This document shows, in pieces, positions 5,786 through 19,354 of a stretch of 64,000 bases of DNA (position 1 is the stretch's first letter; the number at the start of each line of letters is the position of its first letter). The DNA comes from an uncultured Clostridia bacterium (GTDB taxonomy: Bacteria > Bacillota > Clostridia > Oscillospirales > Butyricicoccaceae). The position numbers and the translations under genes are program-made. The stretch is from contig CALWJQ010000084.1 in the NCBI GenBank assembly GCA_944381055.1, positions 1 through 64,000 on the forward strand, given 5' to 3'. The notes beneath the pieces are model-generated. The model saw nothing but the letters and a program-made list of their open reading frames with translations. It had not been told where the DNA came from and made no database searches.

Positions 5786-6589
5786 TTATTCGGCCTGCGA
5801 AATGTCGATGCCGAAGTACTTTTCCGACAGCTCGGTCAGCACGCCTTCTTCGCTCAGCTCGTTCAAAGCCTCGTCAATGGCGGCGCGCAGCGTGGCGGTC
5901 TCTTCTCCCTTGCGCATGGGAATAGCGACCTGCGTCGCGTCCTCGCTCACTGCGGCAATCTTGATGTCCGCGTCGGGCTGGGCCGTCATGTAGTCGTTGG
6001 CTGTGACCTCAGAATTGAGTGTGGCGTCGATGCGGCCGGACAGCAGCAGCTGAATGGTCTGGTTCAGGTCGTCCACCGCGGTGACGGTGGCGCCGTATTC
6101 TTCCGCCATGACGGCATAGGTGCTTTGCAGGGTGTTGGCCGTCGTCTTGCCCTCGAGGTCCTCAAAGGACTGAATGTCCTCGTTGTCGCCGCGGACGAGG
6201 ATGGCAACGCGGTTATAGGCATAGGGAACGGAAAAATCATACTTTTCCCTGCGCGCATCGTCGATGTCCACGCCGTTTGCCATGATGTCGTACCGGCCTG
6301 ACTCAACGCCGGACAGCAGGCCCTCCCATTCGCCTTCAACAAACGTGGCGGTCACGCCCAGCTTTTCGGCGACGGCTTTGGCGACCTCGATGTCATAGCC
6401 GACCAGCTCGTCGTTTTCGTCGTGATAAGTCCAGGGCGCCCAGGTGCCTTCGGTGGCAATGACAATTTCGCCGCGCTCCTGAATCTGCGCGAGCAGGTCG
6501 CCTGACGCCTCTTCCGTCTGGCTGCACCCGGCCAGCACGGAAAGCCCGAGCAAAGCGCTCATCAAAAGTGCAAGCATTCTCTTTTTCAT
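5786..6589 (-). CDS. Polar amino acid ABC transporter, substrate-binding lipoprotein
   Basis: A 267-residue binding protein of the SBP_bac_3 family. A lipoprotein signal (MKKRMLALLMSALLGLSVLAG then Cys) is followed by the usual IVIATEGTWAPWTYHDEND opening, LVGYDIEVAKAVAEKLG, and DIMANGVDIDDARR ligand-pocket motifs. The start at 6589 follows GAGGGAGA. The binding specificity cannot be read, but the Arg/Asp pattern is that of cystine/glutamine/histidine-type binders. It lies downstream of its ATPase and permease genes in one operon. Confidence 0.92.
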   Translation of the reverse strand: MKKRMLALLMSALLGLSVLAGCSQTEEASGDLLAQIQERGEIVIATEGTWAPWTYHDENDELVGYDIEVAKAVAEKLGVTATFVEGEWEGLLSGVESGRYDIMANGVDIDDARREKYDFSVPYAYNRVAILVRGDNEDIQSFEDLEGKTTANTLQSTYAVMAEEYGATVTAVDDLNQTIQLLLSGRIDATLNSEVTANDYMTAQPDADIKIAAVSEDATQVAIPMRKGEETATLRAAIDEALNELSEEGVLTELSEKYFGIDISQAE

Positions 6590-6608
6590 AAAATTCTCTC
6601 CCTCGAAT

Positions 6609-7373
6609 TTATTCTTTATCCTGCGGCGACAGGCGGTCGCCGACGGTTTGCAGAAAAGCGCGGGTGCGTTCTTCCCGCGGGTTTTCAAAAAACTCCCTGG
6701 CCGGGCCCTGCTCGACAATGCGGCCATGCTCCATAAAAATGACCTTGTTCGAGACGTAGCGGGCAAAATTGAGCTCATGCGTGACGACCAGCATGGTCAT
6801 GCCGTCGTCGGCCAGCTGCCGCATGACGGCCAGCACCTCGCCGATCAGCTCGGGGTCGAGGGCCGACGTCGGCTCGTCAAAATAAATGATCTGCGGTTCG
6901 GCCGCAATAGCGCGGGCGATGGCCACGCGCTGCTGCTGCCCGCCCGACAGCTGGCTGGGGTAATGATCGCACCGGTCGGACAGCCCGACCTTTGCAAGCG
7001 CGCGGCGGCCGGTTTCGTCCGCCTGATCGCGCGGTATTTTGCGCGCCACAATGAGCCCTTCGGTGACGTTTTGCAGCGCCGTTTTGTTGGCGAACAGGTT
7101 GTAGCTTTGAAAAACGAACCCTGTTTTTTTGCGGATTGCGGCGATGTCGCGCTTGGACGTATGCGCCATGTCATACTCCCGGCCGCCAAACTCGAGCCTT
7201 CCCTCATCAGCGCGTTCCAAAAAATTCAGGCAGCGCAAAAGGGTTGTTTTCCCCGATCCGCTGGGGCCGAGGATAGACACGACATCCCCCTGCTCGACCG
7301 ACAGGCTGACGCCGTCAAGCACACGGAGCGTGTTGTCAAAGGTCTTGTGAACGTTGGTCGCTTTGAGCAGCAT
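6609..7373 (-). CDS. Polar amino acid ABC transporter, ATP-binding protein
   Basis: A 254-residue GlnQ/TcyC-type ATPase. Walker A GPSGSGKTT, Q-loop (VFQSYNLFANKTALQNV), signature LSGGQQQRVAIARAI, Walker B IIYFDEPTSALDPE and the switch His (VVTHELNFAR) are all intact. The LFANKTALQNVTEGL segment and full length are typical of amino-acid importers. It is translated right after the permease gene (gap of four bases) and before the binding-protein gene. Confidence 0.95.
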   Translation of the reverse strand: MLLKATNVHKTFDNTLRVLDGVSLSVEQGDVVSILGPSGSGKTTLLRCLNFLERADEGRLEFGGREYDMAHTSKRDIAAIRKKTGFVFQSYNLFANKTALQNVTEGLIVARKIPRDQADETGRRALAKVGLSDRCDHYPSQLSGGQQQRVAIARAIAAEPQIIYFDEPTSALDPELIGEVLAVMRQLADDGMTMLVVTHELNFARYVSNKVIFMEHGRIVEQGPAREFFENPREERTRAFLQTVGDRLSPQDKE

Positions 7374-7377
7374 AGGC

Positions 7378-8052
7378 TCACTCCTTCCGGCTCTGGTAAG
7401 CGCTCAGGCGCTTTTCCCCCATGCGCTGTAATTTGGTCAGCACAGTGGAAAAGAGAAGATAGACAATCGCGACCTCGATATAAAGCGCCAGGTGCTCGTA
7501 AGTGCGGGCGGCAATGCGCTGGGTCGCCATAAACATTTCGGTCACCGTGATGTTAGCGGCCAGCGACGTGTCCTTCATCAGCGAGATGACAGAGTTTGCC
7601 AGCGACGGGAAAGCCGTGCGCATGGCCTGCGGCAGCACGATGCGGCGCATGACCTGCAAATAAGACATGCCGACGCACTCCCCCGCTTCGATCTGCCCGA
7701 CCGGAACCGATTCAAGGGCGGCGCGCACCGTTTCAGCCGCGTAAGCGCCGGTGTTGATGGAAAAGACGATGATGGCCGCCGGAAAGGGCTCGAGCGTGAC
7801 GCCCACGTTGGGCAGGCCGTAAAAGACGATGTAAAGCTGCACCAGAAGCGGCGTGCCGCGGATGACCCAGATGTAAAAGCGCGCCAGCTGCCTGAGCACC
7901 CGCACATTGGCAAACTGCACCAGCGCCGCCGCCACCGCAATAATAAGCGCCAGCGCAAACGAAATGGCGGTCAGCGGCAGGGTCATGGCCAGGCCGGGCA
8001 GCAGGATTTTTCCAAAGGAGTCGATCAGTAACCCTATGAGTTCCGAATCCAC
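7378..8052 (-). CDS. Polar amino acid ABC transporter, permease
   Basis: A 224-residue HisM/TcyB-type inner-membrane permease with about five membrane segments (first [21 protein letters not shown]). The WVIRGTPLLVQLYIVFYGLP stretch and the EAA loop (YLQVMRRIVLPQAMR) that docks on the ATPase are clear. The start is a GTG at 8052 with GGAAAGGA upstream. First gene of the importer operon, directly behind a near-consensus promoter. Confidence 0.93.
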   Translation of the reverse strand: MDSELIGLLIDSFGKILLPGLAMTLPLTAISFALALIIAVAAALVQFANVRVLRQLARFYIWVIRGTPLLVQLYIVFYGLPNVGVTLEPFPAAIIVFSINTGAYAAETVRAALESVPVGQIEAGECVGMSYLQVMRRIVLPQAMRTAFPSLANSVISLMKDTSLAANITVTEMFMATQRIAARTYEHLALYIEVAIVYLLFSTVLTKLQRMGEKRLSAYQSRKE

Positions 8053-8136: not shown

Positions 8137-8182
8137 GTGCTTATATTCAATACCTGTTCATGCCCAAAAGGCATAAAAAACA

Positions 8183-8216
8183 GCCTTTCCGGCGGTTTAC
8201 TGCCGCCCGGGAAGGC
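8183..8216 (-). terminator. Terminator at the end of the polysaccharide operon
   Basis: A GC-rich hairpin (GCCTT.CC.GGCGG and complement) that overlaps the stop codon of the last operon gene, followed on the minus strand by a T6 run. Confidence 0.8.
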
Positions 8217-9135
8217 CGTCGTATGATTGCCCGCTGTCTTCGAGCATACTGACCAGCGGATCCAGATAATGATAGGCAAAGCTCAGGTGCTCGTAGCCGA
8301 ACTGTTTTTCCAGCCGGTCGGCCGACTGCCACAGCGCCTCAAGCCCCTGCCCGGCATAGGTATTGATCTCCTCAAGGTCGTGCCTGCCCGCCGGCTGAAG
8401 TTCATAGATGCACACAACCCCTTTGCCGTACTCACGGGCATAGCCGACCTCGCGCGCTATCTGACCGTATTCGTCGGAGCGGTTGTAGTTCATGACCGCC
8501 ACCCCGTCGCAGGCTGTTTCGATAAGCCTTTCAAGGACTTCCGGCGCACTTGCATCATAAAACGTCGGAATGCACGGCCAAAACGCAAGCCCGCTGCGCG
8601 ACGCATACTGAAAGGCGCAGGACATGCCCGCCAGGTAGCCGTCCATCAGTTCATCGCGTCCATCCCCGTCCCATTCGTCAAGCAGATAGGGCTCGACATC
8701 GGCCACCACGCCGGCGATGCGTTCTTCGGGCCCGGCCCGGCGGTTGTATTCGGCGACCTTTTCGATCTCCGACACCAGGCTTTCGCCGCCGCTGTCATAC
8801 GCCCACTCGGCCTCTCCCATCAGCGCATAGACGGCAACTCCCGCCTGCCCCATGTCCCGGACAAAATCCCCAGCTCCGCCCGACTCCAGCATCTCGTCAG
8901 AAAACTGCTGGTACAGCGCGGTCACACCGGCACGGCCGGCGCACAACGCCAGCGCCTGCCTCCCCTCTTCGGTCAGAGGGATTTCGTCATTCCAGCTGAA
9001 CACGCCAAAAGCCGCCTTTGGCGCAGGTTCGGGCTCCGGCTCCGGCTGAGGCGGCAGAAAAACCGTCCGCATCAGCACCGCCGTCAACGCCGCCGACACC
9101 GCGGCCGCGGCCAGCGCGGGCAGGATCCTTTTCAT
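8197..9135 (-). CDS. Membrane-anchored TIM-barrel-like protein, possible glycosidase; last gene of polysaccharide operon
   Basis: A 312-residue protein with an N-terminal signal anchor (MKRILPALAAAAVSAALTAVL), a Pro-Glu rich linker (PPQPEPEPEPAP) and an extracytoplasmic domain with alternating strand-helix pattern. Motifs include GVFSWNDE at the first strand, GVVADVEPYLLDEWD in mid-domain and VAVMNYNRSDEYGQIAREV later, as in TIM-barrel families that act on sugars; the acidic DVEPYLLDEWD could hold catalytic carboxylates. I do not recognise the exact family. The ATG at 9135 overlaps the stop of the EAL gene by 4 bp, so translation is coupled. In Bacillus subtilis the ydaJKLMN locus likewise contains a barrel protein (YdaL) next to a synthase, which makes polymer trimming or modification a fair guess. 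Confidence 0.6.
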   Translation of the reverse strand: MKRILPALAAAAVSAALTAVLMRTVFLPPQPEPEPEPAPKAAFGVFSWNDEIPLTEEGRQALALCAGRAGVTALYQQFSDEMLESGGAGDFVRDMGQAGVAVYALMGEAEWAYDSGGESLVSEIEKVAEYNRRAGPEERIAGVVADVEPYLLDEWDGDGRDELMDGYLAGMSCAFQYASRSGLAFWPCIPTFYDASAPEVLERLIETACDGVAVMNYNRSDEYGQIAREVGYAREYGKGVVCIYELQPAGRHDLEEINTYAGQGLEALWQSADRLEKQFGYEHLSFAYHYLDPLVSMLEDSGQSYDGLPGRQ

Positions 9136-10949
9136 CGTTCGTTCCTTTCGCCGGCTTCCAGCAGCTGGCGGCGCGCTTCCCATTCGGGCAGCGGCCGGAA
9201 AAACGCATATCCCTGCATGGCGTCGCAGCACAGCCTGCGCAAAATATCAGACTGCGCCCTGTTTTCGACGCCGTCGGCCAGGACGGCCAGATCCAAATCG
9301 TGGCCAATGCGGATGATCGAATCGAGCAGCGCCTTGCCCCGCGGCGTCTCGGCGCCTGCGACCAGGCCCCGGTTGAGCTTGACGCCGTCGGCCGGGAAGC
9401 CGGCCAGTTCGGCAAACGACGTCAGGTCTTTGCCGAAATCGTCCAAAAGCACCCGCAGGCCCATGTCCTGCATCTGCCGGGCATTGCGCCGGATGCGATC
9501 CCCGTCCGCATCCGCCCCGCCCGTCAGCTCTAAAACAAGCAGATCGCGCGCAAACCGGCGCCCTTCCAGCAGGCGGCGGCAGCGGTCGGGAAAATCTTCG
9601 GCCGCAAAGGTCTTTCGCGACAGGTTGCACGACAGGAAAAATCCGGTCTGCACATGCCCGTGCAGGCGATCCAAAAAGTCGGCGCAGCGCTCAAGCATAT
9701 AAAAATCAAGGCGGTCAATCAAATCGGCCCGTTCAAAGACGGGTATAAACCGCCAGGGCGTCAGAAACCCCTTTTCCGGGTGCTGCCAGCGCGCCAGCGC
9801 CTCGCCGCCCGCAACGGCAAGGGAGCCGGCGTCGACATAAAACTGAATATACAGCAAAAATTCCCCGCGTTCAAGGGCCCGCGGCAGTTCTGCGCAAAAC
9901 CGTTTTTCTTCCTGCACGCGGCTGTGCATGGCGTCGGTGTATTCCAGGTACGGTTTTCCCTCGCGCGCTGCCTGTGCGGCAGCCTGTCCCGACCGCGCGA
10001 GGACATCGTCCAATTCCCAGTCCCTTTCCCGCAGGGCGTACAGGCCGGCGGTCACGCGGCACATCCGCAGCTCCCGGCACACCTCGTCGAGCGAGGCCTG
10101 CGCCATCGACAGCCACTGCCGCAGCTCTTCCCCGCCCGCGGTGCGGCGCAGCAGCAGAAACCCGGCGTCCGCCACACGGGCCAGCACATCGTGCTCGCCC
10201 GCATACCTCCGCAGCACTGCCGCCGTCCGGCGCAGCATTTCCTCTTTGTCCTGCGGGCCGCGGACTTTTTCCAGCTGTTCGGCGTCCGCGTAAAAATAGA
10301 CCGCCGTATACAGCACGCGGCTTTCTTCTGAAATCACCGACAGGTAACGGCTGCGCAGGAAGCGCTCGTTTCCCAGGCCGGTCAACGGGTCGGTTTCCCT
10401 GTCTTTCTTTCCCCGGCGGCGCTGACGCAGGCAGGCCCGCGCCAGCAAAACGGCGATCACGGCCAGCAAAGCGGCCGCGATCCCCAGGCCGGCCGTCAGC
10501 GATTCCTGCCAGCGGGGAACCGGCGCGCGCCCGGCCGCCGCGTCGACCAGCAGCCCTGCCGTTTGCTGCTGCCCGACGCCTGCCATAAAGTCCGACAGTT
10601 CCTGACGCAGCGCGGACGGCGCGGCCTGCGTCAGCCACAGCTGGTACGTCACGGTCTCTCCGCCGCGCTCGACGGTCAAAATTTCGATGGGCTCCCCCTG
10701 CGTATGCAGGAAACGTTCGTCTTCCGAGCAGGCTGAAATCAGGTCCACCTGGCGGTTGCGCGCCAGATGGGCCCGTTGATCTTCCTCGCCGGGGCTGTAA
10801 TATTGAATGTCATAGCCGGTTTCTTCGGCAAAGCGGCTGAGCAGCCGGGGCACGACCCCCTGATACGTCCCGCTCCCGCGGTCGTAGTATTCCAGGGGGT
10901 AATTGTCCGGGCTGCCCGCCACCAGGATGACGGCGCCTTCCCTGCTCAA
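9132..10949 (-). CDS. Degenerate GGDEF-EAL protein with N-terminal periplasmic-binding-like domain
   Basis: A 605-residue protein. Residues 5-140 resemble half of a SBP_bac_3 ligand domain (VILVAGSPDNYPLEYYD), 152-172 form one membrane helix, 183-340 a GGDEF fold (DPLTGLGNERFL) whose active motif reads ADAGF at 260-264, and 350-600 an EAL domain. EAL residues kept: E383 (EALAR), N442, E474, D503-D504, K524, Q579. Changed: the second acid after ELT is Gly, the Asp after Lys is Asn (KLNRG) and the EGVE acid reads ADGVE. It probably does not make c-di-GMP and may be a c-di-GMP receptor rather than an efficient phosphodiesterase. The start is a TTG overlapping the upstream TGA, and no signal peptide precedes the binding domain, which is odd. 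Encoded in the polysaccharide operon. Confidence 0.8.
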   Translation of the reverse strand: MSREGAVILVAGSPDNYPLEYYDRGSGTYQGVVPRLLSRFAEETGYDIQYYSPGEEDQRAHLARNRQVDLISACSEDERFLHTQGEPIEILTVERGGETVTYQLWLTQAAPSALRQELSDFMAGVGQQQTAGLLVDAAAGRAPVPRWQESLTAGLGIAAALLAVIAVLLARACLRQRRRGKKDRETDPLTGLGNERFLRSRYLSVISEESRVLYTAVYFYADAEQLEKVRGPQDKEEMLRRTAAVLRRYAGEHDVLARVADAGFLLLRRTAGGEELRQWLSMAQASLDEVCRELRMCRVTAGLYALRERDWELDDVLARSGQAAAQAAREGKPYLEYTDAMHSRVQEEKRFCAELPRALERGEFLLYIQFYVDAGSLAVAGGEALARWQHPEKGFLTPWRFIPVFERADLIDRLDFYMLERCADFLDRLHGHVQTGFFLSCNLSRKTFAAEDFPDRCRRLLEGRRFARDLLVLELTGGADADGDRIRRNARQMQDMGLRVLLDDFGKDLTSFAELAGFPADGVKLNRGLVAGAETPRGKALLDSIIRIGHDLDLAVLADGVENRAQSDILRRLCCDAMQGYAFFRPLPEWEARRQLLEAGERNER

Positions 10950-11530
10950 TTTTCCCGCGCTGTCCTTTCTTTCCTTCTCTTAAAAATGGTCACTCCGCCG
11001 GCGGCCGTGCCGGCCGGGACGGCCGCCTCTTCTTTGTCCTCCGGCTGCGGCTCCGGCGCCTCGACGGGCACTTCGGCGCGCAGCCCGGCAACCTGCTCTT
11101 CGACGGCGGCCGCGCGGCCGTCGAGCTCTTCGAGCAGTTCGCGGAAAAGCCCGCGCAGTTTGCCGATCCGGACGGCGTAAGCATCCAGTTCGCGCATTTG
11201 CCGGCCCGTTTCGTCAGACACCTTTTGCCTGGCTTCTTCCTCATGCAGGCGCGTTTCCTCGCGCGCCTGCCGCGCATACGCCTGCGCGGCCAGCAGGGTG
11301 TCAAAGGTCAGCTGGCGCTTTTCCAGCAGCGCCTCGTTTTCGCTCCGCAGCCTGCCCAGCTCGTTTTCGAGTTCGGCGATGCGCTTTTGCGCCTGCTCTT
11401 CCGCCTCGGCCGCCTGCGACTGCAGCTCGGCGACCTGCTCGGTATGCCGGCTTTCAAGGGCCGACAGGTACTGGCATACATCTGAAACCTTATACCCCCA
11501 GATACTCTTTTTCAGCTCGTCTATCCGCAT
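10946..11530 (-). CDS. DivIVA-like coiled-coil protein in polysaccharide operon
   Basis: A 194-residue cytosolic protein. The N-terminus MRIDELKKSIWGYKVSDVCQ then YLSALE looks like the membrane-curvature-binding N-terminal part of DivIVA/GpsB-like proteins (short helix, then a Y/F-x-x-x-D-V-x-x-Y/F motif). Residues about 30-150 are an almost unbroken heptad coiled coil rich in Glu, Gln, Ala and Arg, and the tail is acidic-Pro followed by a basic end (FKRRKERTAREN). No enzyme motif. The ribosome site AAAAGGAGG is excellent. Placed between the GT2 synthase gene and the degenerate EAL gene, it may scaffold or localise the synthase; this is inference. Confidence 0.65.
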   Translation of the reverse strand: MRIDELKKSIWGYKVSDVCQYLSALESRHTEQVAELQSQAAEAEEQAQKRIAELENELGRLRSENEALLEKRQLTFDTLLAAQAYARQAREETRLHEEEARQKVSDETGRQMRELDAYAVRIGKLRGLFRELLEELDGRAAAVEEQVAGLRAEVPVEAPEPQPEDKEEAAVPAGTAAGGVTIFKRRKERTAREN

Positions 11531-11557
11531 GAAAAACAGCCTCCTTTTCCAATCTGT

Positions 11558-12961
11558 TTATCTGATCTGGATCTCGCTGCGTTCAATCGAACCCCACCGG
11601 GACCGATACTTGTGATACCCGATGAGCGCCGTCATGCGCACCCACGCCAGGACAAAGCGCAGGCATGAAACTTCGGCGGCACAGATAGCAATGGCCTTGA
11701 ACACATCGTACGCCGTCAGCTTGAGATCAACGGTGTGGATCCGCGCAAAAAAGGCGGTCAGCGACAAAATCGACGAATCGGCGATATAAATGGCCAGGTA
11801 CAGCAGCATGAACGGCACGTTGAGAAAATCAATCAGCGACGCCAGAACCATCGTCAGGACGCCGAACACCTCGATATAGGGCGAAAACAGCTCGTACAGC
11901 AGGAAATATGTGTAAGAAATGACGCTGACCAGCCCGTACCGCGGATTGGCCAGGATGGTGCGGTGCCGCATCATGCTCTGGAACAGCCCGATGTGCCACC
12001 GCCGGCGCTGCCGGCACAGGTCACGCAGCTTTTCGGGCGCCTGCGTCCAGCAGACGGCGTCGGTCGCATAGCGGATCCGATAGGGGATGTTGTTTTCACG
12101 GCAGAACGCGTGCAGCCGCACGGCCAGTTCCATGTCCTCGCCCATTGTCGTGGTGTCGTACCCGCCCGCGGCGACAACCACGCTTTTTTTGAACAGCCCG
12201 AGGGCCCCCGAAATGATGATGCTGCCGTTGAACTTGTCGAACAGGATGCGCGCCGCCAGAAAAGACCGGTCGTATTCCAGCACCTGCATACTGGGCAGCA
12301 AGCGGCGGGGCATCCGGTAGCGGACCAGCCTGCCGTTTTCCAGCTCGGCGCCGTTCCCCGGGCGCACGGCGCCGCCCACGGCGACGACCCGGTCGTCTTC
12401 CAGCACGGGCCGGACGATTTTTTCCAGCGAATCGCTTTGCAGTACCGAATCGGCGTCCAGGCACAGGAAATAAGGGTAGCGCGCCGCGTTGATCCCCATG
12501 TTGAGCGAATCGGCCTTGCCGCCGTTGCGCTTGCAGATCAGCGTAATCGGCGCCTTGAAGGCCCGCGACTCATACACCGCTTCTTCGGGCTGGCAGGCCA
12601 GGCTGCGCTGGATGGGCCGGTTGACATGCCGCATACGGAAACGCTCGCGCACAATGTCCGCCGTGGCGTCGGTCGACCCGTCGTCGATGACGATGATTTC
12701 GTACACCTTGTACTCCAGCGACAAAAGCGACCGCACCGTCGCTTCGATGGTCACCGCCTCGTTGTAAGCGGGCACGAGGACCGATACAGGGATGTAATAG
12801 TCGGTGGGCAGTTCGTTTTTCAGCATATTCCGGCGCTTCAGCCCGTACAGGGTCGACGAACCGACAACGACGGACAAAAATAAAAACGTGGCGTATCCAA
12901 TCATATACAGAACAAAAAAGACGCTGACAACGTTAAAGAACGCCTGAAAAAAATCCCTCAT
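11558..12961 (-). CDS. Processive family 2 glycosyltransferase (BcsA/IcaA/YdaM-like synthase)
   Basis: A 467-residue membrane synthase that would polymerise a sugar from a UDP-sugar and extrude it. After one or two N-terminal membrane helices comes the GT-A domain: VSVLVPAYNE, VIDDGSTD, KRNGGKADSLN, FLCLDADS (DxD metal site), GEDMEL (catalytic base) and QRRRWHIG (QxxRW acceptor motif). Four or so membrane helices follow (about 340-460). The protein ends without a PilZ domain, so any c-di-GMP control must come through another protein; the degenerate GGDEF-EAL protein two genes downstream is the candidate. The start overlaps the HEAT gene stop (ATGA). The sugar is unknown; the set of motifs fits cellulose, PNAG or related beta-glycans. 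Confidence 0.9.
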   Translation of the reverse strand: MRDFFQAFFNVVSVFFVLYMIGYATFLFLSVVVGSSTLYGLKRRNMLKNELPTDYYIPVSVLVPAYNEAVTIEATVRSLLSLEYKVYEIIVIDDGSTDATADIVRERFRMRHVNRPIQRSLACQPEEAVYESRAFKAPITLICKRNGGKADSLNMGINAARYPYFLCLDADSVLQSDSLEKIVRPVLEDDRVVAVGGAVRPGNGAELENGRLVRYRMPRRLLPSMQVLEYDRSFLAARILFDKFNGSIIISGALGLFKKSVVVAAGGYDTTTMGEDMELAVRLHAFCRENNIPYRIRYATDAVCWTQAPEKLRDLCRQRRRWHIGLFQSMMRHRTILANPRYGLVSVISYTYFLLYELFSPYIEVFGVLTMVLASLIDFLNVPFMLLYLAIYIADSSILSLTAFFARIHTVDLKLTAYDVFKAIAICAAEVSCLRFVLAWVRMTALIGYHKYRSRWGSIERSEIQIR

Positions 12962-14067
12962 ACCCCGCTCACTTCCCCCGCCGTTTCCTGTTCCATCAGG
13001 CGGGATTCCACCCGATACAGAATCATCTCCCGCGCGTAGCGATCCGACCCGTCGAGCAGTTCGGACAGGTCGCTGTAAGACACCTGATGCGCTTCCAGGC
13101 TGACCGCCGCGTTATAGCGGACATACCAGTTCCCGCTGTGCAGCGCGCCGATCAGCGCCTGCACGACGTCGCCGCCCGGGTACCGCGCCAGCGACGACGC
13201 GCTGACGGCGGCATATTCCCACGCCAGCGGGTCGCGGTCAGCCAGAAACCCCAGCAGGGCGCTGCGCGCCGGCTCATATCTGTGCTTTCCGAAATAGCGG
13301 ACAGCCGACAGCCGCAGCTCTTTGTCCCGGGCGGCATCAGTCATGATAGCAAAGATTTGTTCGCACCGCCCGCCGGTGCGCAGGCGCGTATAGTTGAGCA
13401 CAGCCAGCTGCGTCCGCATGTCAAACTGCTCGAACCGCTCCCACAGCATCGCTTCCAGACGCCGCTGGTCGCCGGCAAAGGACAAAAGGCCGTCGGTCAG
13501 GATCTTGTCGTTGACGGCGGCGCCTGCGCGGCTCTGCACAGAGACAGCCCGCACGACCGATTCGGCCGCCCCGGACGCATACAGGGCCTGCAGCGCGTTG
13601 ACGCGGCAGTAAAGGCTGTCTTTCCCCATATACGCGACAAAGGCTTCCTGCATACTTTCCAGCATTGGCAGCCCGGACGGCCGGTGTTTTTCCGCGAAAT
13701 AGGCAAAATAAGCGCACTGCATCGGATTCTTGTCCCGGTACAGCAGGGCCAGCTGCAGCAGAACCGGCTGGATGGCGCGCACATAGCTGTCGGCGCAGGC
13801 GGGATCCATGCCGCTCAGCGTACGATCCAGCACGACCAGCGCGTTGACGACGGACAGCCGCCGGCGCAGGTACCGCAGGTGCCGTTTTTCCACCTGCATC
13901 CCGGCGCACAGGCGGTCAGCCTGGCGGCAGACACGGCGCGCCAGCCCCCGGGCATGGAACCCGGAGCCGCGTTCGCGCCGGCGCAGCACCGCATTGTACA
14001 CCAGGTTAAACCCGATCATTCCCAGGCAGATCAGGCCATAAATATACAGCAGAACCTCGCTTTTCAC
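12958..14067 (-). CDS. Membrane-anchored HEAT-repeat protein
   Basis: A 369-residue protein with one N-terminal membrane helix (LLYIYGLICLGMIGFNLVYN) and then helical repeats. HEAT/PBS-type repeats are clearest in the C-terminal half: LRLSAVRYFGKHRYEPARSA, AWEYAAVSASSLARY and WYVRYNAAVSLEAHQV. Such repeats are protein-binding platforms. The start is the GTG at 14067 behind AGGGGTGATCGC; an upstream start at 14094 would overlap the preceding gene. It is translationally coupled to the synthase gene downstream, as expected for a synthase partner. Similar HEAT proteins occur beside GT2 synthases in other Firmicutes; the exact job is not known. Confidence 0.7.
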   Translation of the reverse strand: MKSEVLLYIYGLICLGMIGFNLVYNAVLRRRERGSGFHARGLARRVCRQADRLCAGMQVEKRHLRYLRRRLSVVNALVVLDRTLSGMDPACADSYVRAIQPVLLQLALLYRDKNPMQCAYFAYFAEKHRPSGLPMLESMQEAFVAYMGKDSLYCRVNALQALYASGAAESVVRAVSVQSRAGAAVNDKILTDGLLSFAGDQRRLEAMLWERFEQFDMRTQLAVLNYTRLRTGGRCEQIFAIMTDAARDKELRLSAVRYFGKHRYEPARSALLGFLADRDPLAWEYAAVSASSLARYPGGDVVQALIGALHSGNWYVRYNAAVSLEAHQVSYSDLSELLDGSDRYAREMILYRVESRLMEQETAGEVSGV

Positions 14068-14071
14068 GCGA

Positions 14072-16339
14072 TCACCCCTGACGGCCCGCGTCAATCTGCG
14101 CCCAGTACTGCTTGAGCATGGTATAAGACTCTTTGAGGCGCTCGTGGTACGTCACCGTTTTGCCCCAGCCTTCGAGCTCGACCGCCGCCATGGGAATGCG
14201 GTACTCGCTTTCACCGCAGCTCAGGCCGACGTACATTTCGTCGATCTGAAGGTTTTCGATGCCGTAGTGCTCGTAATAATCGTCGTGAATCATCATCTCT
14301 GACGGGTTGGAAAAGTTGAGAAGCTGCCAGGGAATACGGATTTCCACCCCGTGTTCGGCAAACATAAAGTCGGCCAGCGAATCAAAATCCCCGCTTTGCG
14401 GGTTGGCGTTGCCATAGCGAAGCTTTCCGGTTTCATACACCTCGGCGTTTGCTTCCCAGTTGCCCGTGAGAAGCGGGGTGGCGGTCTGAAGCATCAGGTC
14501 AATATACTGAAACTCCGGCGTGTCGCGGTCCGGGACGTCCAGATAGGCGTCCTGTTCTTCGGTTTCATGCATGTACATCGCCCGCAGCACCTCATACCTG
14601 CGCTGCACGACGACACGGCTCTGATCCGTGCCGCTGATGCGGATGACAAAATCGCAGGGCCGCTCAAAAGACAGATCGTAGTTTTGGCAATAGGTGCTGC
14701 CCGTTTTGGGCGTCGTATCGATCGGGATATAGAAAATGTCCTGATCCGGGTCAAATCCTTCGGCCTCTGCGTAAAAATAAAGGAATTTCTCATCGTATTT
14801 GACCGAAAGTGAACTGCTGCCGTCCGACCAGACCACGTCTTCTTCGGTCCATTCCGAAAGATCGCCGTCCACATAGCAGACGCTTTCGGTTTTTCCGGGG
14901 TCAAAGGTTAAAAGCCCGAAATACTGTTCATTGGTCTGATAATCGCTCCAGTACGGGGTGTTGTCCAGATCGACGGCGTGCATGGTGTTCCAGGTGCGCT
15001 TAAACCATTCGTCCTGCCAGGTAAACACACAGCTGCCGGCACAGCCGGCGTCCATGATGTCTTCATAGCAGTCGATGAGCGCCTGGCCCTGCTCCTGCTC
15101 GCTCATATGGCCCTGGTTGCGGCCGGTGTTGATATCCCGCTGCGCCATGCCCCGGCCGGTGGACACGCCGTATTCCGAAATGACCACGGGGATTGTGTGA
15201 TAGCGGTTGAGCGCCCGCAGATAGGCGACATAGGTATTGGTACGCCCGTCGCGATCACGGTAGTCTGCGGCCTCGTCGCCGGTCAAAACGCTCTCAATGG
15301 GGACGCCGGCGGCGTCTGACATGGAAAGCTCGATCTCTTCGTCATTCCATGCGGGGTCGGAAACTTCCAGCTCAACCGGGTTCAGCACATAATTCAGATA
15401 ATCCGGATAGTAGGAATACACATGGTAGGACGCAAAGTGGCCGGACAAAAACGCATCGGTCGTTTTGATGTGCTCGACGTCCACCTGCGCGCACTTCATG
15501 AAAAAATTGGTGATCTCTGCCGGGTACAAAAACGGATCGGTCGTCGGCCAGTTGGAAAAGGCGATGAGCCGCTGCTGCTTGTACCGATGGGTCTCGTACG
15601 CAATGACGCTGTCCCCCACGCGGGCCAGCATGGCCTCAAACGGCGTGGCGTCTTCTGTGGTATACATGTAGCTGCCGGCGTACTGGCTGCGCCCGGGGTT
15701 GCTTTCGTTGGTATAAGCGACGGTCACATCTTCCCATTCCACGCCCAGAATATAGGCGATGATCCAGGGCGAGACGTCCCTGCGGTAGCTGCCGGAGCCC
15801 AGCCCGCGGCCCAGCGAAAGGTTCTTTTTCCCGTGCACCACATCAATCATGGTGTGGCAGTCGTCCAGAAAGGTCTGCAAAAAGTCGTCGTCATAGGCGT
15901 CCCGGTGCGAGTTTTGGATATAGTCGTTGACCCATACGCCGTGAATCAGCCACAATGGCTCAAGGCCCTGCTCTTCACGATCGGTATTGTAATCGTAAAA
16001 GGCGTTGTAAAAGTCGTCGTGCAGAATGGTATAGACGCGGATGGTATTGGCCCCCATTTCCTGAATCAGGCCGAACCAGCGCAGGTATGTTTCATATTCA
16101 ATGGCGTAATCAGTGGCCCATTCGCCGGGAATCCCGACGCCCATATTGACGCCCCGGATTTCAAACGGTTCGGCGGTCCCGTCCCGCTCCATATAGATTG
16201 TGTCCCCGTCGGCCGTCATCCGGACATCTACCTCGCCGTCCGGCTGCAAGTCGATGTAGACGCCCAGATGGAAATACGCATAGTAGGCCGCGAAAAAAAT
16301 CAGCACGACCGCACTTGCGACGGCAATAAACAGTTTCAT
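14072..16339 (-). CDS. Membrane-anchored glycoside-hydrolase-like protein (clan GH-A type barrel plus C-terminal domain)
   Basis: A 755-residue protein anchored by an N-terminal helix (MKLFIAVASAVVLIFFAAYYAY) with the rest outside. Residues about 55-430 look like a clan GH-A TIM barrel: IRGVNMGVGIPGEW opening, GANTIRVYTI, WIIAYILGVEWE at strand 4 (the second-position Glu could be the acid/base) and IPVVISEYGVS at strand 7 (nucleophile Glu). After CVFTWQDEWFKRTW, a C-terminal beta domain (CYVDGDLSEWTEEDVVW onwards) resembles CBM9/DOMON-type sugar-binding modules. It probably trims or transfers the polymer made by the operon's synthase. The exact GH family is not identified, and the Asn usually before the acid/base is Val here. 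Confidence 0.65.
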   Translation of the reverse strand: MKLFIAVASAVVLIFFAAYYAYFHLGVYIDLQPDGEVDVRMTADGDTIYMERDGTAEPFEIRGVNMGVGIPGEWATDYAIEYETYLRWFGLIQEMGANTIRVYTILHDDFYNAFYDYNTDREEQGLEPLWLIHGVWVNDYIQNSHRDAYDDDFLQTFLDDCHTMIDVVHGKKNLSLGRGLGSGSYRRDVSPWIIAYILGVEWEDVTVAYTNESNPGRSQYAGSYMYTTEDATPFEAMLARVGDSVIAYETHRYKQQRLIAFSNWPTTDPFLYPAEITNFFMKCAQVDVEHIKTTDAFLSGHFASYHVYSYYPDYLNYVLNPVELEVSDPAWNDEEIELSMSDAAGVPIESVLTGDEAADYRDRDGRTNTYVAYLRALNRYHTIPVVISEYGVSTGRGMAQRDINTGRNQGHMSEQEQGQALIDCYEDIMDAGCAGSCVFTWQDEWFKRTWNTMHAVDLDNTPYWSDYQTNEQYFGLLTFDPGKTESVCYVDGDLSEWTEEDVVWSDGSSSLSVKYDEKFLYFYAEAEGFDPDQDIFYIPIDTTPKTGSTYCQNYDLSFERPCDFVIRISGTDQSRVVVQRRYEVLRAMYMHETEEQDAYLDVPDRDTPEFQYIDLMLQTATPLLTGNWEANAEVYETGKLRYGNANPQSGDFDSLADFMFAEHGVEIRIPWQLLNFSNPSEMMIHDDYYEHYGIENLQIDEMYVGLSCGESEYRIPMAAVELEGWGKTVTYHERLKESYTMLKQYWAQIDAGRQG

Positions 16340-16362
16340 CGGGCGCCTCTCTTCTCATCCTG

Positions 16363-17847
16363 TCAATGGTTGAATTTCTTGTTCTTGGACGGGTGGCTGT
16401 ACTGCTGAAGGATCTCGATGTGTTCGTCCATCCACTCGCCGCGCTCTGCAATAAAGTCCCTGATTTGCTGCACCGCCTCGCCGTGATCGGCGGGGTTGCG
16501 GCTTTCCGGCCGCAGGGGGACGTATTCCTCAAACGTATATCCCCAAACCTCGAAATTGCGGCTGACGGCGTCGCCGAGGAACGCAACGGTTTTGTCGATG
16601 TATTCGTTCAGGGTCTCTTCGCTCAGCCAGCTTTCCCGCAGCGCGTGATAGCGGCTGATAATCTGCCTCACGAAGTCTTCGTTCTTGGTCAGCATATAAT
16701 ACCAGACGCCGTTCTGCATTTCAAAATGCTGGGGCTGCGTCGTCAGTGATGTATAGTTGTCGCAGGCCGAGTTAAAGTCCCAGATGCACATGCGGTATTT
16801 CCCGCCAATGTCTTTGTACAAATAGGTTGAAAGGTTGCCGGCGTCATAGTTGCAGGTAAACTCGTTGATGATAAAATAATCGACAAACGACCCTGTATCG
16901 ATCCATGTCCTGTACCCGTATGTCTCCGAATCGTAGTCAAACGAATACAGCGCCTTTTCAAAATCAGACAGCTCCTGCTCGATGGCGTCCGCCAGCTCCT
17001 GTGTCAGGCTGCCGCTGCGCGGGTACGCAATATTGATGCTGATGTTGTGCATGCGCCCAAGCCTGTAAGTATAATAGGTAAAGTTATTGATGTTTTTGAT
17101 GTCGGTTTCGCTGCCGCGGTCCAGCCGCAGCACGCAGCCGGTGGACGTCGTCCCTTCAACGGGTTCGCGCACCTCCACGCGGCTGTCCACCCCGCTGGTG
17201 ATGGTCTCGGTCATGACATAAAGGCCCTGGTATTCACCGTTCAGCATGACCTCGCAGAAGCGGACGTTGGGGGCATAGTCCATGATTTCGCCGGCAATAT
17301 TATACCACATGTAATTGCGGATCAGGCTTTTGTCCAGGTAGGGCCCGTAAAGCGCCCATTCGTAATGGCTGTCCATCCCCATGACTTCACGGCTGGCATA
17401 GCTTCCGTCCCTTTCGGTCAGCCGCAGCAGATAGCTTTTTTTGTCAAAATACCGCGAAGAATTGCCGCGCACGCGGATCAGCGCGCTGCTTTGAAGGTCC
17501 GGCTCGTCGGACGGATGATGATTATGCGAATCATCATCCAAAACAGCGACCTGGACGCGCAGCATATCCTCGCCTTCCGCCGTTGTGGTAAACCCTTCCG
17601 CCGCTTCGTCGGAATGTTCGTTGAGGGGAACCCCCGGTATCTCTTCTCCGCCGGTGTCGATGAGCACCAGCGGCAGGTGGGTGCACAGCTCCGTTCCGTC
17701 ACAGCTGCAGCCCTCGTCCGGCTGCCGGCCCGTCAAATGCTGATGGACCCGCCTGGGGCCCTCAGACGCTTCATAGCCAATCGCCGCCAGCACGCACAGC
17801 GTCATTACCGCCAGCGCGGCGGCCGCCAGGATCAGTGTCCGCTTCAT
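16363..17847 (-). CDS. CotH family atypical protein kinase, exported
   Basis: A 494-residue protein with an N-terminal membrane anchor. CotH landmarks are all present: RVRGNSSRYFDKKSYLL near residue 125, EWALYGPYLDKSLIRNY, LNGEYQGLYVMTE, and the late YLYKDIGGKYRMCIWDFN metal/ATP motif. CotH of Bacillus spores phosphorylates coat proteins; non-sporulation CotH proteins are found at cell surfaces and in cellulosomes. Here it is embedded with DUF4956 and a VTC-like domain, a frequent trio across bacteria. A His/Asp stretch (DDDSHNHHPSDEPD) near residue 100 is unusual and could bind metal. Ribosome site GGAGGGCGGT. Role in modifying the surface polymer or its proteins is inferred. Confidence 0.9.
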   Translation of the reverse strand: MKRTLILAAAALAVMTLCVLAAIGYEASEGPRRVHQHLTGRQPDEGCSCDGTELCTHLPLVLIDTGGEEIPGVPLNEHSDEAAEGFTTTAEGEDMLRVQVAVLDDDSHNHHPSDEPDLQSSALIRVRGNSSRYFDKKSYLLRLTERDGSYASREVMGMDSHYEWALYGPYLDKSLIRNYMWYNIAGEIMDYAPNVRFCEVMLNGEYQGLYVMTETITSGVDSRVEVREPVEGTTSTGCVLRLDRGSETDIKNINNFTYYTYRLGRMHNISINIAYPRSGSLTQELADAIEQELSDFEKALYSFDYDSETYGYRTWIDTGSFVDYFIINEFTCNYDAGNLSTYLYKDIGGKYRMCIWDFNSACDNYTSLTTQPQHFEMQNGVWYYMLTKNEDFVRQIISRYHALRESWLSEETLNEYIDKTVAFLGDAVSRNFEVWGYTFEEYVPLRPESRNPADHGEAVQQIRDFIAERGEWMDEHIEILQQYSHPSKNKKFNH

Positions 17848-17858
17848 ACCGCCCTCCG

Positions 17859-18536
17859 TCAGCTGCTGATGTCATCGTTCTGCATGACGATGTTGAAGTA
17901 TTCGACGCCGCCCAGCGCATAGATCTCGTCGGTCAGGCTTTTGGCCGCTTTCCGGTCTTTTTCGATCAGCTTGCGGCCCAATTCAAAGATAAACTCAACG
18001 CTTTCTTCGGTGGTATTTTTTGCGCGCAGCACGGCCTTGCGCGCAAAACGCTGGAAAACGACCGCTTCAATCCTGCTTTCGCTCACGCGGCCGGCGCGGA
18101 TGATGAGCAGCACGCGGTTGTCGTTGCGCACATACCCCAGCGCCAGGAAGACGGCGAAGGTAAAGGCGCTGCCGATGCCCGCCACCCAGAAATCGCCCGC
18201 GCCGCAGCAGATGCCGGTGACGATGGCCCAAAAGATATAGGCCGTATCGCGTGAATCCTTGATGGCCGTGCGGAAGCGGACAATGGACAGCGCGCCGACC
18301 ATGCCGAGCGAAAGCGCGATGTTGTTGCCGATGACGATCATGACCGTCGTTGTGATGACGGTCAGGGCTGCCAGCGTGACGTTGAACTTGCGGCTGTAAA
18401 TGGTTCCGACGTGCGACAGCCGGTAGGACAGGTAAATACAGCACGCGATGACGGCCGACACCCCCAGCCGGGTGACAATGACATCCGGCGCCAGGTAACC
18501 TGCGTCGGCGAACAGCTCCATCAGATACTGCTTCAT
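17859..18536 (-). CDS. DUF4956 membrane protein
   Basis: A 225-residue protein with about four membrane helices in the first 125 residues (VIACCIYLSYRL, ALTVITTTVMIVIGNNIALS, then GMVGALSIVRFRTAIKD, IVTGICCGAGDFWVAGI) and a cytosolic alpha/beta tail. GALSIVRFRTAIKD is the diagnostic DUF4956 block. These proteins nearly always sit between CotH and VTC-like polymerase-domain genes, as here (gaps of 11 and 27 bases). The activity is unknown; partner channel or scaffold for the VTC-like domain is the usual guess. Confidence 0.88.
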   Translation of the reverse strand: MKQYLMELFADAGYLAPDVIVTRLGVSAVIACCIYLSYRLSHVGTIYSRKFNVTLAALTVITTTVMIVIGNNIALSLGMVGALSIVRFRTAIKDSRDTAYIFWAIVTGICCGAGDFWVAGIGSAFTFAVFLALGYVRNDNRVLLIIRAGRVSESRIEAVVFQRFARKAVLRAKNTTEESVEFIFELGRKLIEKDRKAAKSLTDEIYALGGVEYFNIVMQNDDISS

Positions 18537-18563
18537 AAAGACCTCGCTTTCCCGAAAGCGCCG

Positions 18564-19253
18564 TCAGACATGCAGCGAGACGCTTCGGGCCAGATAGTAT
18601 TTGCTGACCGACAGCTCGGAACGGTCGGCCGTGTTGAGCAGGGATCGGATATAGCCAAGCAGAAAGCCGTTGTACTTGACTTCAAGCACGGCGCTGAACG
18701 GATCCAGTACCGGGGAAAGGGGCAGGTTCGGGGAAAAAACGTCATAGTCTGCTTCGTTGGCCGCGACTTGGCGGTCAACGGTCACACGGATACGGTTTTC
18801 ACGGGCAATAAAGGCGGTGCGCCGGTACTCGACGACCGTCCGCGGGCGGTAGCAGCGCCAGCACATCAGGCCGTAGCATTCGGCCGCGAACGGCTCGTCG
18901 TAGCGCAGCAGAGGCCTGTAATCGCCCTGCGTCAGCCGTGCGGCGTCCTCGCGCGCAAGGCGCAGCGAGCGTTTTTTCTGGTATTCCCCCTGTTTCTGCT
19001 TCATTTCCAGCATGGCAAACCGGTCGTTCGGGTTATAGACACGCAGACGGATTTTGCGCCGCAGCTCAAGCCCGTCGAGCTTATCATAAAAATCGCCGTC
19101 ATCGGGCGTGTCAAAATACAGCGAACGCACGCGGTAGCCGAGCGGGCCGTTGTGCCCGTCCTGCATCATGACCCGCCCCAGGCGCGCGCACAGGATCGGC
19201 ACGTCAGCCGCCGTGATCTGGTACTTTTTTTCCTGCCGCAAAACCTGGTTCAC
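18564..19253 (-). CDS. VTC-like polyphosphate polymerase domain protein
   Basis: A 229-residue cytosolic protein of the VTC/CYTH-like triphosphate tunnel fold. Features: EKKYQI strand at the start, VRSLYFDTP, RRKIRLRVYN with basic tunnel residues, LEMKQKQGEYQKKR, VVEYRRTAFI and a late AVLEVKYNGFLLGYIRSLL. In yeast Vtc4 this tunnel makes polyphosphate from ATP; the bacterial DUF4956-linked form has not been assigned firmly. The start is the GTG at 19253 nine bases after AAGGGAG; an upstream ATG lies directly on an AGGAGG with no spacing. First gene of the nine-gene operon. Confidence 0.82.
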   Translation of the reverse strand: MNQVLRQEKKYQITAADVPILCARLGRVMMQDGHNGPLGYRVRSLYFDTPDDGDFYDKLDGLELRRKIRLRVYNPNDRFAMLEMKQKQGEYQKKRSLRLAREDAARLTQGDYRPLLRYDEPFAAECYGLMCWRCYRPRTVVEYRRTAFIARENRIRVTVDRQVAANEADYDVFSPNLPLSPVLDPFSAVLEVKYNGFLLGYIRSLLNTADRSELSVSKYYLARSVSLHV

Positions 19254-19313: not shown

Positions 19314-19354
19314 ATTATACATCCTCCTGCACAGAATGTACAGCGCCAATTCTG
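19314..19354 (-). promoter_or_regulatory. Promoter and inverted repeat of the polysaccharide operon
   Basis: Minus strand TGTACA (19337-19342), 17-bp spacer, perfect TATAAT (19314-19319). An inverted repeat CAGAAT-N11-ATTCTG (19332-19337, 19349-19354) brackets the -35 region and may be an operator. No c-di-GMP riboswitch is visible in the short leader. Confidence 0.6.

Follow-up and report, generated by a model that had tools for sequence, protein, structure and literature searches.

What is made by a cluster of nine minus-strand genes in which a family 2 glycosyltransferase (GT2) is accompanied by VTC, DUF4956, CotH and HEAT-repeat proteins? The genes, here called g1 to g9, lie at positions 8197-19253 of the 64,000-nucleotide stretch that was analysed (the window), which represents positions 1 to 64,000 of contig CALWJQ010000084.1 from an uncultured Clostridia bacterium (assembly GCA_944381055.1). 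A reading of the DNA letters without database searches (the sequence-only reading) had proposed a surface-polymer operon. Our results indicate that the product is very probably a long sugar polymer, assembled and secreted by the cluster, and we consider it likely that it represents a synthase-dependent exopolysaccharide operon with a HEAT partner protein, a phosphate module and tuning by cyclic di-GMP (c-di-GMP). Domains were assigned with Pfam and NCBIfam, membrane topology was derived from hydrophobicity, and labels such as kinase and polymerase are based on homology. The genes are as follows.

18564..19253, minus strand: g1, cytosolic VTC-domain protein of the polyphosphate-polymerase/triphosphate tunnel metalloenzyme type, without transmembrane (TM) segments (PF09359, 1.8e-39)
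17859..18536, minus strand: g2, DUF4956 membrane protein with an MgtC-like TM region and a cytosolic C-terminus (PF16316, 1.7e-13; weak MgtC match, 0.006; three hydrophobic segments)
16363..17847, minus strand: g3, homologue of CotH-type secretory kinases with an N-terminal TM anchor (PF08757, 1.5e-55)
14072..16339, minus strand: g4, membrane-anchored TIM barrel resembling glycoside hydrolase (GH) clan GH-A, with a C-terminal beta-sandwich (no Pfam match; AlphaFold2 model, pLDDT 84.7)
12958..14094, minus strand: g5, N-terminally anchored HEAT-repeat protein, the immediate partner of the GT2 (PF13646, 1.9e-7; TM segment at residues 14-32)
11558..12961, minus strand: g6, putative processive GT2 polysaccharide synthase without PilZ domain (PF00535/PF13641)
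10946..11530, minus strand: g7, DivIVA-like coiled coil, optional and fast-evolving (N-terminal motif GY-x3-DV-x2-YL; NCBIfam DivIVA-related, 0.001)
9132..10949, minus strand: g8, SBP_bac_3-like domain, TM segment, degenerate GGDEF domain and EAL domain (PF00563, 2.2e-54; PF00990, 2e-5; PF00497, 2.7e-4)
8197..9135, minus strand: g9, N-terminally anchored TIM-barrel protein, perhaps GH18-like, optional (AlphaFold2 model, pLDDT 75.6; mixed TIM-barrel/GH18 fold matches)

All nine open reading frames (ORFs) were confirmed, with intergenic distances from g1 to g9 of 27, 11, 23, -23, -4, 27, -4 and -4 bp, i.e. with gaps of at most 27 bp and three overlaps of 4 bp, as the sequence-only reading had described them. 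The last distance is counted from the ATG at 9135, since alignments of the family point to this codon, rather than the GTG at 9231, as the start of g9. Hydrophobicity suggests single N-terminal anchors in g3, g4, g5 and g9, hydrophobic segments at both the N- and C-terminal ends of g6, and a single segment in the middle of g8; g1 and g7 have no such segment.

Using the GT2 as a query against genome contigs, we recovered 80 loci from Clostridia and Bacilli. The order VTC–DUF4956–CotH–g4–HEAT–GT2 is kept in 53 of the 56 loci with sufficient upstream DNA according to tblastn, and in 48 of the 56 according to a stricter, profile-first ORF calling, which was used since greedy longest-ORF calling mislabels GC-rich loci. 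Conservation at this level goes far beyond what chance would produce, and the near-universal co-occurrence bears out the conserved operon that had been proposed. The exceptions are two loci in which genes of the VTC–DUF4956–CotH trio are absent or partial (L015 and L061) and one decayed copy (L052/L285, Flavonifractor sp. AGMB03687). The decayed copy is a natural partial mutant, with truncated VTC and CotH genes and retained g4 and GT2 genes, while DUF4956 and HEAT were not found at this locus. The GGDEF-EAL gene is located downstream in 51 of 61 loci and the coiled-coil gene in 28 of 61, homologues of g9 are present in 10 loci, where they follow g8 or precede VTC, and the g4 barrel is present in all loci with enough DNA (68/68). 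The genes g1-g6 are the core of the operon and g7 and g9 are optional; the earlier picture of nine genes as one machine holds for the fixed core but not for the latter two. A compact version, g9–VTC–DUF4956–CotH–g4–HEAT–GT2, without the coil and the GGDEF-EAL gene, is carried by a plasmid of Planococcus maritimus (GT2 identity 50%), the source of which was shrimp paste. The distribution is patchy, with g4 present in 23 of 399 genomes of the phylum and 13 of 147 genomes of the order. The combination g4–HEAT–GT2 without the trio is seen across Bacillota, and in L289-L292 three g4-like genes, one of more than 1000 amino acids, surround HEAT–GT2.

The candidate synthase g6 contains the motifs DDGSTD, LDADS, GEDMEL and QRRRW, corresponding to the D, DxD, (T/G)ED and QxxRW motifs of membrane GT2 enzymes, together with C-terminal TM helices. 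All checked GT2s from class A, that is, from loci in which VTC lies with HEAT–GT2, contain DDGSxD, DADS and Q-R-x-R-W, and nearly all contain GEDMEL. The best NCBIfam match of g6 is PgaC_IcaA (1.3e-44, 153 bits against a family cut-off of 422 bits). In BLAST searches, the HEAT-paired GT2s rank highest (30-39% identity), followed by synthases of poly-N-acetylglucosamine (PNAG) and deacetylase–GT2 fusions, then by ArnC, and finally by the very distant BcsA (22% identity, E 0.005). The class A proteins also grouped together in a GT2 tree, apart from PNAG synthases, BcsA and ArnC; the branches of BcsA, OpgH and ArnC are very long, and only the coarse grouping of this tree was used. Pfam searches identified no PilZ or BcsB match among the operon proteins. 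The genome encodes one PilZ protein outside the operon, and its strong GGDEF proteins number at least three. The motifs, the proximity to PgaC/IcaA and the distance to ArnC and lipid-type glycosyltransferases support the proposed role of g6 as a processive polymer synthase that would act with an unusual set of partners, without PilZ or BcsB.

One widely shared partner is the HEAT protein g5. The HEAT gene is located immediately upstream of a GT2 gene also in Deinococcus, Mesorhizobium, Legionella, Bacteroides, Erythrobacter, Devosia and three haloarchaea (plasmid-borne homologues), and HEAT–GT2 is a cross-domain pair of Bacteria and Archaea. A profile comparison of the HEAT family of the window with the HEAT partners of distant phyla aligned 349 columns, including the N-terminal anchor, at E 1.1e-32, a score that repeats can inflate. 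The adjacency in distant phyla strengthens the idea that the HEAT protein is a dedicated synthase partner. YaiO barrels adjoin the pair in Mesorhizobium and Legionella, and a TPR–YaiO fusion does so in Bacteroides. In known polymer machines, export is the task of a TPR protein and an outer-membrane barrel, NfrA being an example (PMC8669469); these neighbours are therefore the strongest evidence here that HEAT–GT2 would make a secreted polymer. Many of the distant pairs are also adjoined by response regulators. Sugar-nucleotide genes differ between lineages, with a UDP-sugar dehydrogenase in L274 and Legionella and glmS in Halosolutus, suggesting that the product may vary too. On plasmid pRadio2 of Deinococcus radiophilus (L196, 2376-4802), a TPR–g4 fusion is located immediately upstream of HEAT–GT2.

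The second conserved part of the operon is the trio. The VTC protein g1 has a profile match to yeast Vtc4 (3g3q), and the tunnel residues R69, R71, K85 and K94 are invariant and aligned with Vtc4; this basic tunnel predicts polyphosphate polymerase activity. The CotH homologue g3 is a predicted kinase, with a full PF08757 domain and the catalytic positions K136 (63/63 orthologues), D335 (61/63), D357 (63/63) and N359 (61/63). The VTC–DUF4956 pair extends well beyond this operon: among Clostridia genomes, 101 of 196 encode VTC, and DUF4956 adjoins VTC in 74 of 80 neighbourhoods. These neighbourhoods fall into class A, with HEAT–GT2 (n=9, three of which are cut by contig ends), class B, in most of which CotH and two-component genes are the neighbours (n=29), and class C, in which Cthe_2159 and two-component genes are frequent (n=42). 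In many Clostridia, the synthase-free VTC–DUF4956 genes of classes B and C (L112-L191) have as neighbours response regulator or histidine kinase genes as well as genes for CotH or for Cthe_2159, a carbohydrate-binding protein.

The trio has already been described beside Gram-positive pel clusters (PMC7112168; PMC12345266), and two pel loci in our dataset, L318 and L320, contain cotH–vtc–DUF4956 in line with PMC7112168. The VTC phylogeny placed the proteins from these two loci inside class B, at two places, while class A formed a clade of its own. The trio has therefore joined polymer synthases more than once, and the phylogeny shows independent unions of VTC with HEAT–GT2 and with Pel. A paper from 2025 reports not having seen the three genes together at loci other than pel (PMC12345266), which is contradicted by the HEAT–GT2 loci. 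The same study reported for the pel operon of Streptococcus intermedius that loss of the CotH homologue led to less Pel and loss of the DUF4956 homologue to more, and that both mutants aggregated less in one medium (PMC12345266). Alternatively, the trio could be an independent polyphosphate and kinase module that is merely co-transcribed with the synthase, as suggested by the many g4–HEAT–GT2 loci without the trio and by the frequent occurrence of the trio, or of the VTC–DUF4956 pair, without a synthase. We find this unlikely, since class A VTC is one clade within a fixed six-gene order, the trio joined Pel independently, and mutants of two trio members change the amount of Pel. The phosphorylation of the polymer or of attachment proteins that had been suggested stands as an inference.

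Neither g4 nor g9 matches a Pfam or NCBIfam family. The sequence-only reading had left g4 unnamed in its title; the AlphaFold2 model and a fold search now describe it as a GH-A-like barrel followed by a beta-sandwich at the C-terminus. The best folds in the PDB are GH157 endo-beta-1,3-glucanase, followed by GH2, GH72 and GH5/GH113, and a PDB sequence search gave a single weak match, also to GH157 (0.0062). At the positions expected for the acid/base and nucleophile of clan GH-A, E201 is present in 65 and E389 in 62 of 71 orthologues. As modelled, g4 would be the operon-linked exoplasmic protein that acts on glycans. For g9, the PDB sequence search yielded nothing useful, homologues adjoin related operons, and relatives match PF01261 weakly. 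A firm GH18 label was dropped in view of these weak matches and the mixed TIM-barrel folds, and the GH18-like motifs of g9 are suggestive only.

The similarity of g4 to the beta-glucan-active GH157 and GH72 folds, and the production of such glucans by Clostridia (PMC10374906), raise the question of whether g6 could belong with Ccs, RiGT2 or Yda among the synthases of beta-glucans or cellulose-like polymers. This is improbable in our view, since RiGT2 contains a PilZ domain (PMC10374906) and g6 does not, BcsA is very distant, and the UDP-sugar dehydrogenase or glmS genes beside the pair in some relatives hint at uronic-acid or amino-sugar polymers there. A decoration role, in which a lipid carrier or wall polymer receives single sugars from the GT2, and CotH and VTC phosphorylate a teichoic-acid-like product, would suit the high diversity of GT2 proteins, the phosphate-rich polymers of Gram-positive walls and the synthase-free VTC–DUF4956–CotH modules, but is very unlikely given the QxxRW and GED motifs and TM layout of g6, its distance from ArnC-type enzymes, the export barrels that adjoin HEAT–GT2 in Gram-negatives and the lack of teichoic-acid genes in the operon.

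How the exopolysaccharide operon is regulated can be approached from g8, which had been described as a degenerate GGDEF-EAL protein. This is correct for the GGDEF half, the motif of which is lost throughout the family, but not, across the family, for the EAL half, in which E383, N442, E474, D503, D504, K524, E562 and Q579 are near invariant; most family members also keep the loop-6 ExTE and DDFGxG motifs. In 13 of 51 loci, the gene immediately upstream of VTC is an intact GGDEF (diguanylate cyclase) gene, and other loci have additional EAL or HD-GYP genes near the operon. Local c-di-GMP control is likely for the operon family because of these three features, in agreement with the link to c-di-GMP that had been put forward. 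The SBP_bac_3-like domain of g8 is preceded by a signal peptide in Lachnospiraceae-type copies (L058, L065 and L080) but not in copies of the window type (9132-10949). For g7, only weak coiled-coil or DivIVA-like matches were obtained. One Bacillota locus encodes a DivIVA-like coil fused to a receiver domain, and this fusion, together with the response regulators beside HEAT–GT2 pairs, suggests that g7 may descend from a response-regulator-type coil–receiver protein.

Operon structure, domains, motifs, conservation and gene linkage were read from the sequences, and from these we infer polymerisation, partner roles, phosphate transfer and c-di-GMP control. In the proposed mechanism, g6 would polymerise a cytosolic sugar nucleotide and pass the chain through the membrane by a channel of its own, with the membrane-anchored HEAT protein as its obligatory cytosolic partner in place of PilZ/BcsB, PgaD or IcaD. 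Outside the cell, g4, at times with g9, may trim, rearrange or merely bind the emerging chain. The trio would form a phosphate module spanning the membrane, in which VTC makes polyphosphate inside and has DUF4956 as a membrane subunit. The extracytoplasmic target of phosphorylation by CotH would be the polymer or proteins similar to g4. The output of polymer could be tuned by local c-di-GMP turnover through the upstream GGDEF enzymes in some loci and the EAL protein g8, and the DivIVA-like coil may position the machinery in the cell in some species.

Several observations weigh against this proposal. To our knowledge, the polymer is known for no HEAT–GT2 pair. The fold matches of g4 have low TM-scores, at best about 0.3 by query length, and the nucleophile E389 is absent in nine of 71 orthologues; some copies must therefore work without ordinary hydrolysis. 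VTC–DUF4956, with or without CotH, is found near two-component systems without any synthase, and the VTC homologue SIR_1593 of S. intermedius has no reported phenotype (PMC12345266). No c-di-GMP-binding site is visible in the GT2 or HEAT proteins, distant loci use response regulators, and the EAL domain of g8 in the window carries the loop-6 changes E477G and G508D.

A broader hypothesis, which is possible but rather doubtful, holds that HEAT–GT2 is an unrecognised class of synthases in Bacteria and Archaea, switched by a membrane-anchored HEAT solenoid whose input comes from response regulators in most lineages and, in Clostridia, from c-di-GMP enzymes, and that VTC–DUF4956–CotH is a phosphate relay across the membrane which is transferable between systems, adds phosphate to secreted polymers and was recruited independently by HEAT–GT2 and Pel. 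The spread of the pair through Bacteria and Archaea makes the partner role testable with two genes. The trio gains a second, independent polymer context.

The boundaries of the operon agree with the promoter and terminator that had been placed there.

19314..19342, minus strand: promoter-like site, TGTACA-17-TATAAT
8168..8225, minus strand: intrinsic terminator-like hairpin and T tract, the stem overlapping the end of g9

The terminator-like element was overlooked by a simple terminator scan and revealed by RNA folding of 8168-8225 (-26.1 kcal/mol, z = -3.4), the hairpin being followed by UGUUUUUU. Directly downstream of the operon, at 5786-8052, is an amino-acid-type ABC transporter (binding protein, ATPase and permease), for which a separate promoter-like site lies at 8136-8108.

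How does the operon compare with known systems? No description of this gene set was identified in the open-access literature with searches for DUF4956, YaiO with HEAT repeat, and CotH with polyphosphate polymerase. The earlier statement that no such system has been described holds for the whole set but not for the trio, given its presence beside pel. The genes define what is probably an exopolysaccharide operon, common in gut Clostridia and apparently not described before. The cellulose synthase BcsA/BcsB was rejected as an identity, as PilZ and BcsB were not found in the operon. For PNAG systems, PgaC/PgaD and IcaA/IcaD, the similarity is that they represent the closest curated GT2 family (about 27% identity); they were also rejected, since the GT2 of the window is below the family cut-off and in a separate clade, and the operon lacks a deacetylase and PgaD/IcaD. 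The ydaJKLMN operon of Bacillus subtilis, which was compared by description only, likewise combines a GT2-type synthase with a c-di-GMP receptor (PMC7064775), and a DivIVA-like protein is plausible because the Yda synthase forms polar clusters (PMC7064775). However, the trio and HEAT are not described there (PMC7064775), and Yda was rejected as the window operon has no BcsB-like YdaN. Escherichia coli NfrBA-YbcH resembles the HEAT–GT2 systems in its GT2 synthase, TPR outer-membrane partner and local c-di-GMP control, but NfrB has an MshEN domain, and HEAT, the trio and the GH are not described there (PMC8669469). The Gram-positive pelDEADAFG operon shares the accessory genes cotH, PPP(VTC) and DUF4956 beside an exopolysaccharide synthase operon (PMC7112168, PMC12345266), as seen again at L318 and L320, and in bifidobacterial pel a diguanylate cyclase/phosphodiesterase replaces DUF4832 (PMC7112168, PMC12345266). 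Pel differs in its GT4-type PelF and in PelD, PelE and PelG, and was rejected since the genome of the window has no match to PelF (DUF3492, GT4; PF11997). The order of the trio also differs, cotH–vtc–duf in pel and vtc–duf–cotH in the window, and the VTC proteins belong to different clades. The operon joins the HEAT–GT2 pair to a phosphate trio that was known earlier only from the pel locus.

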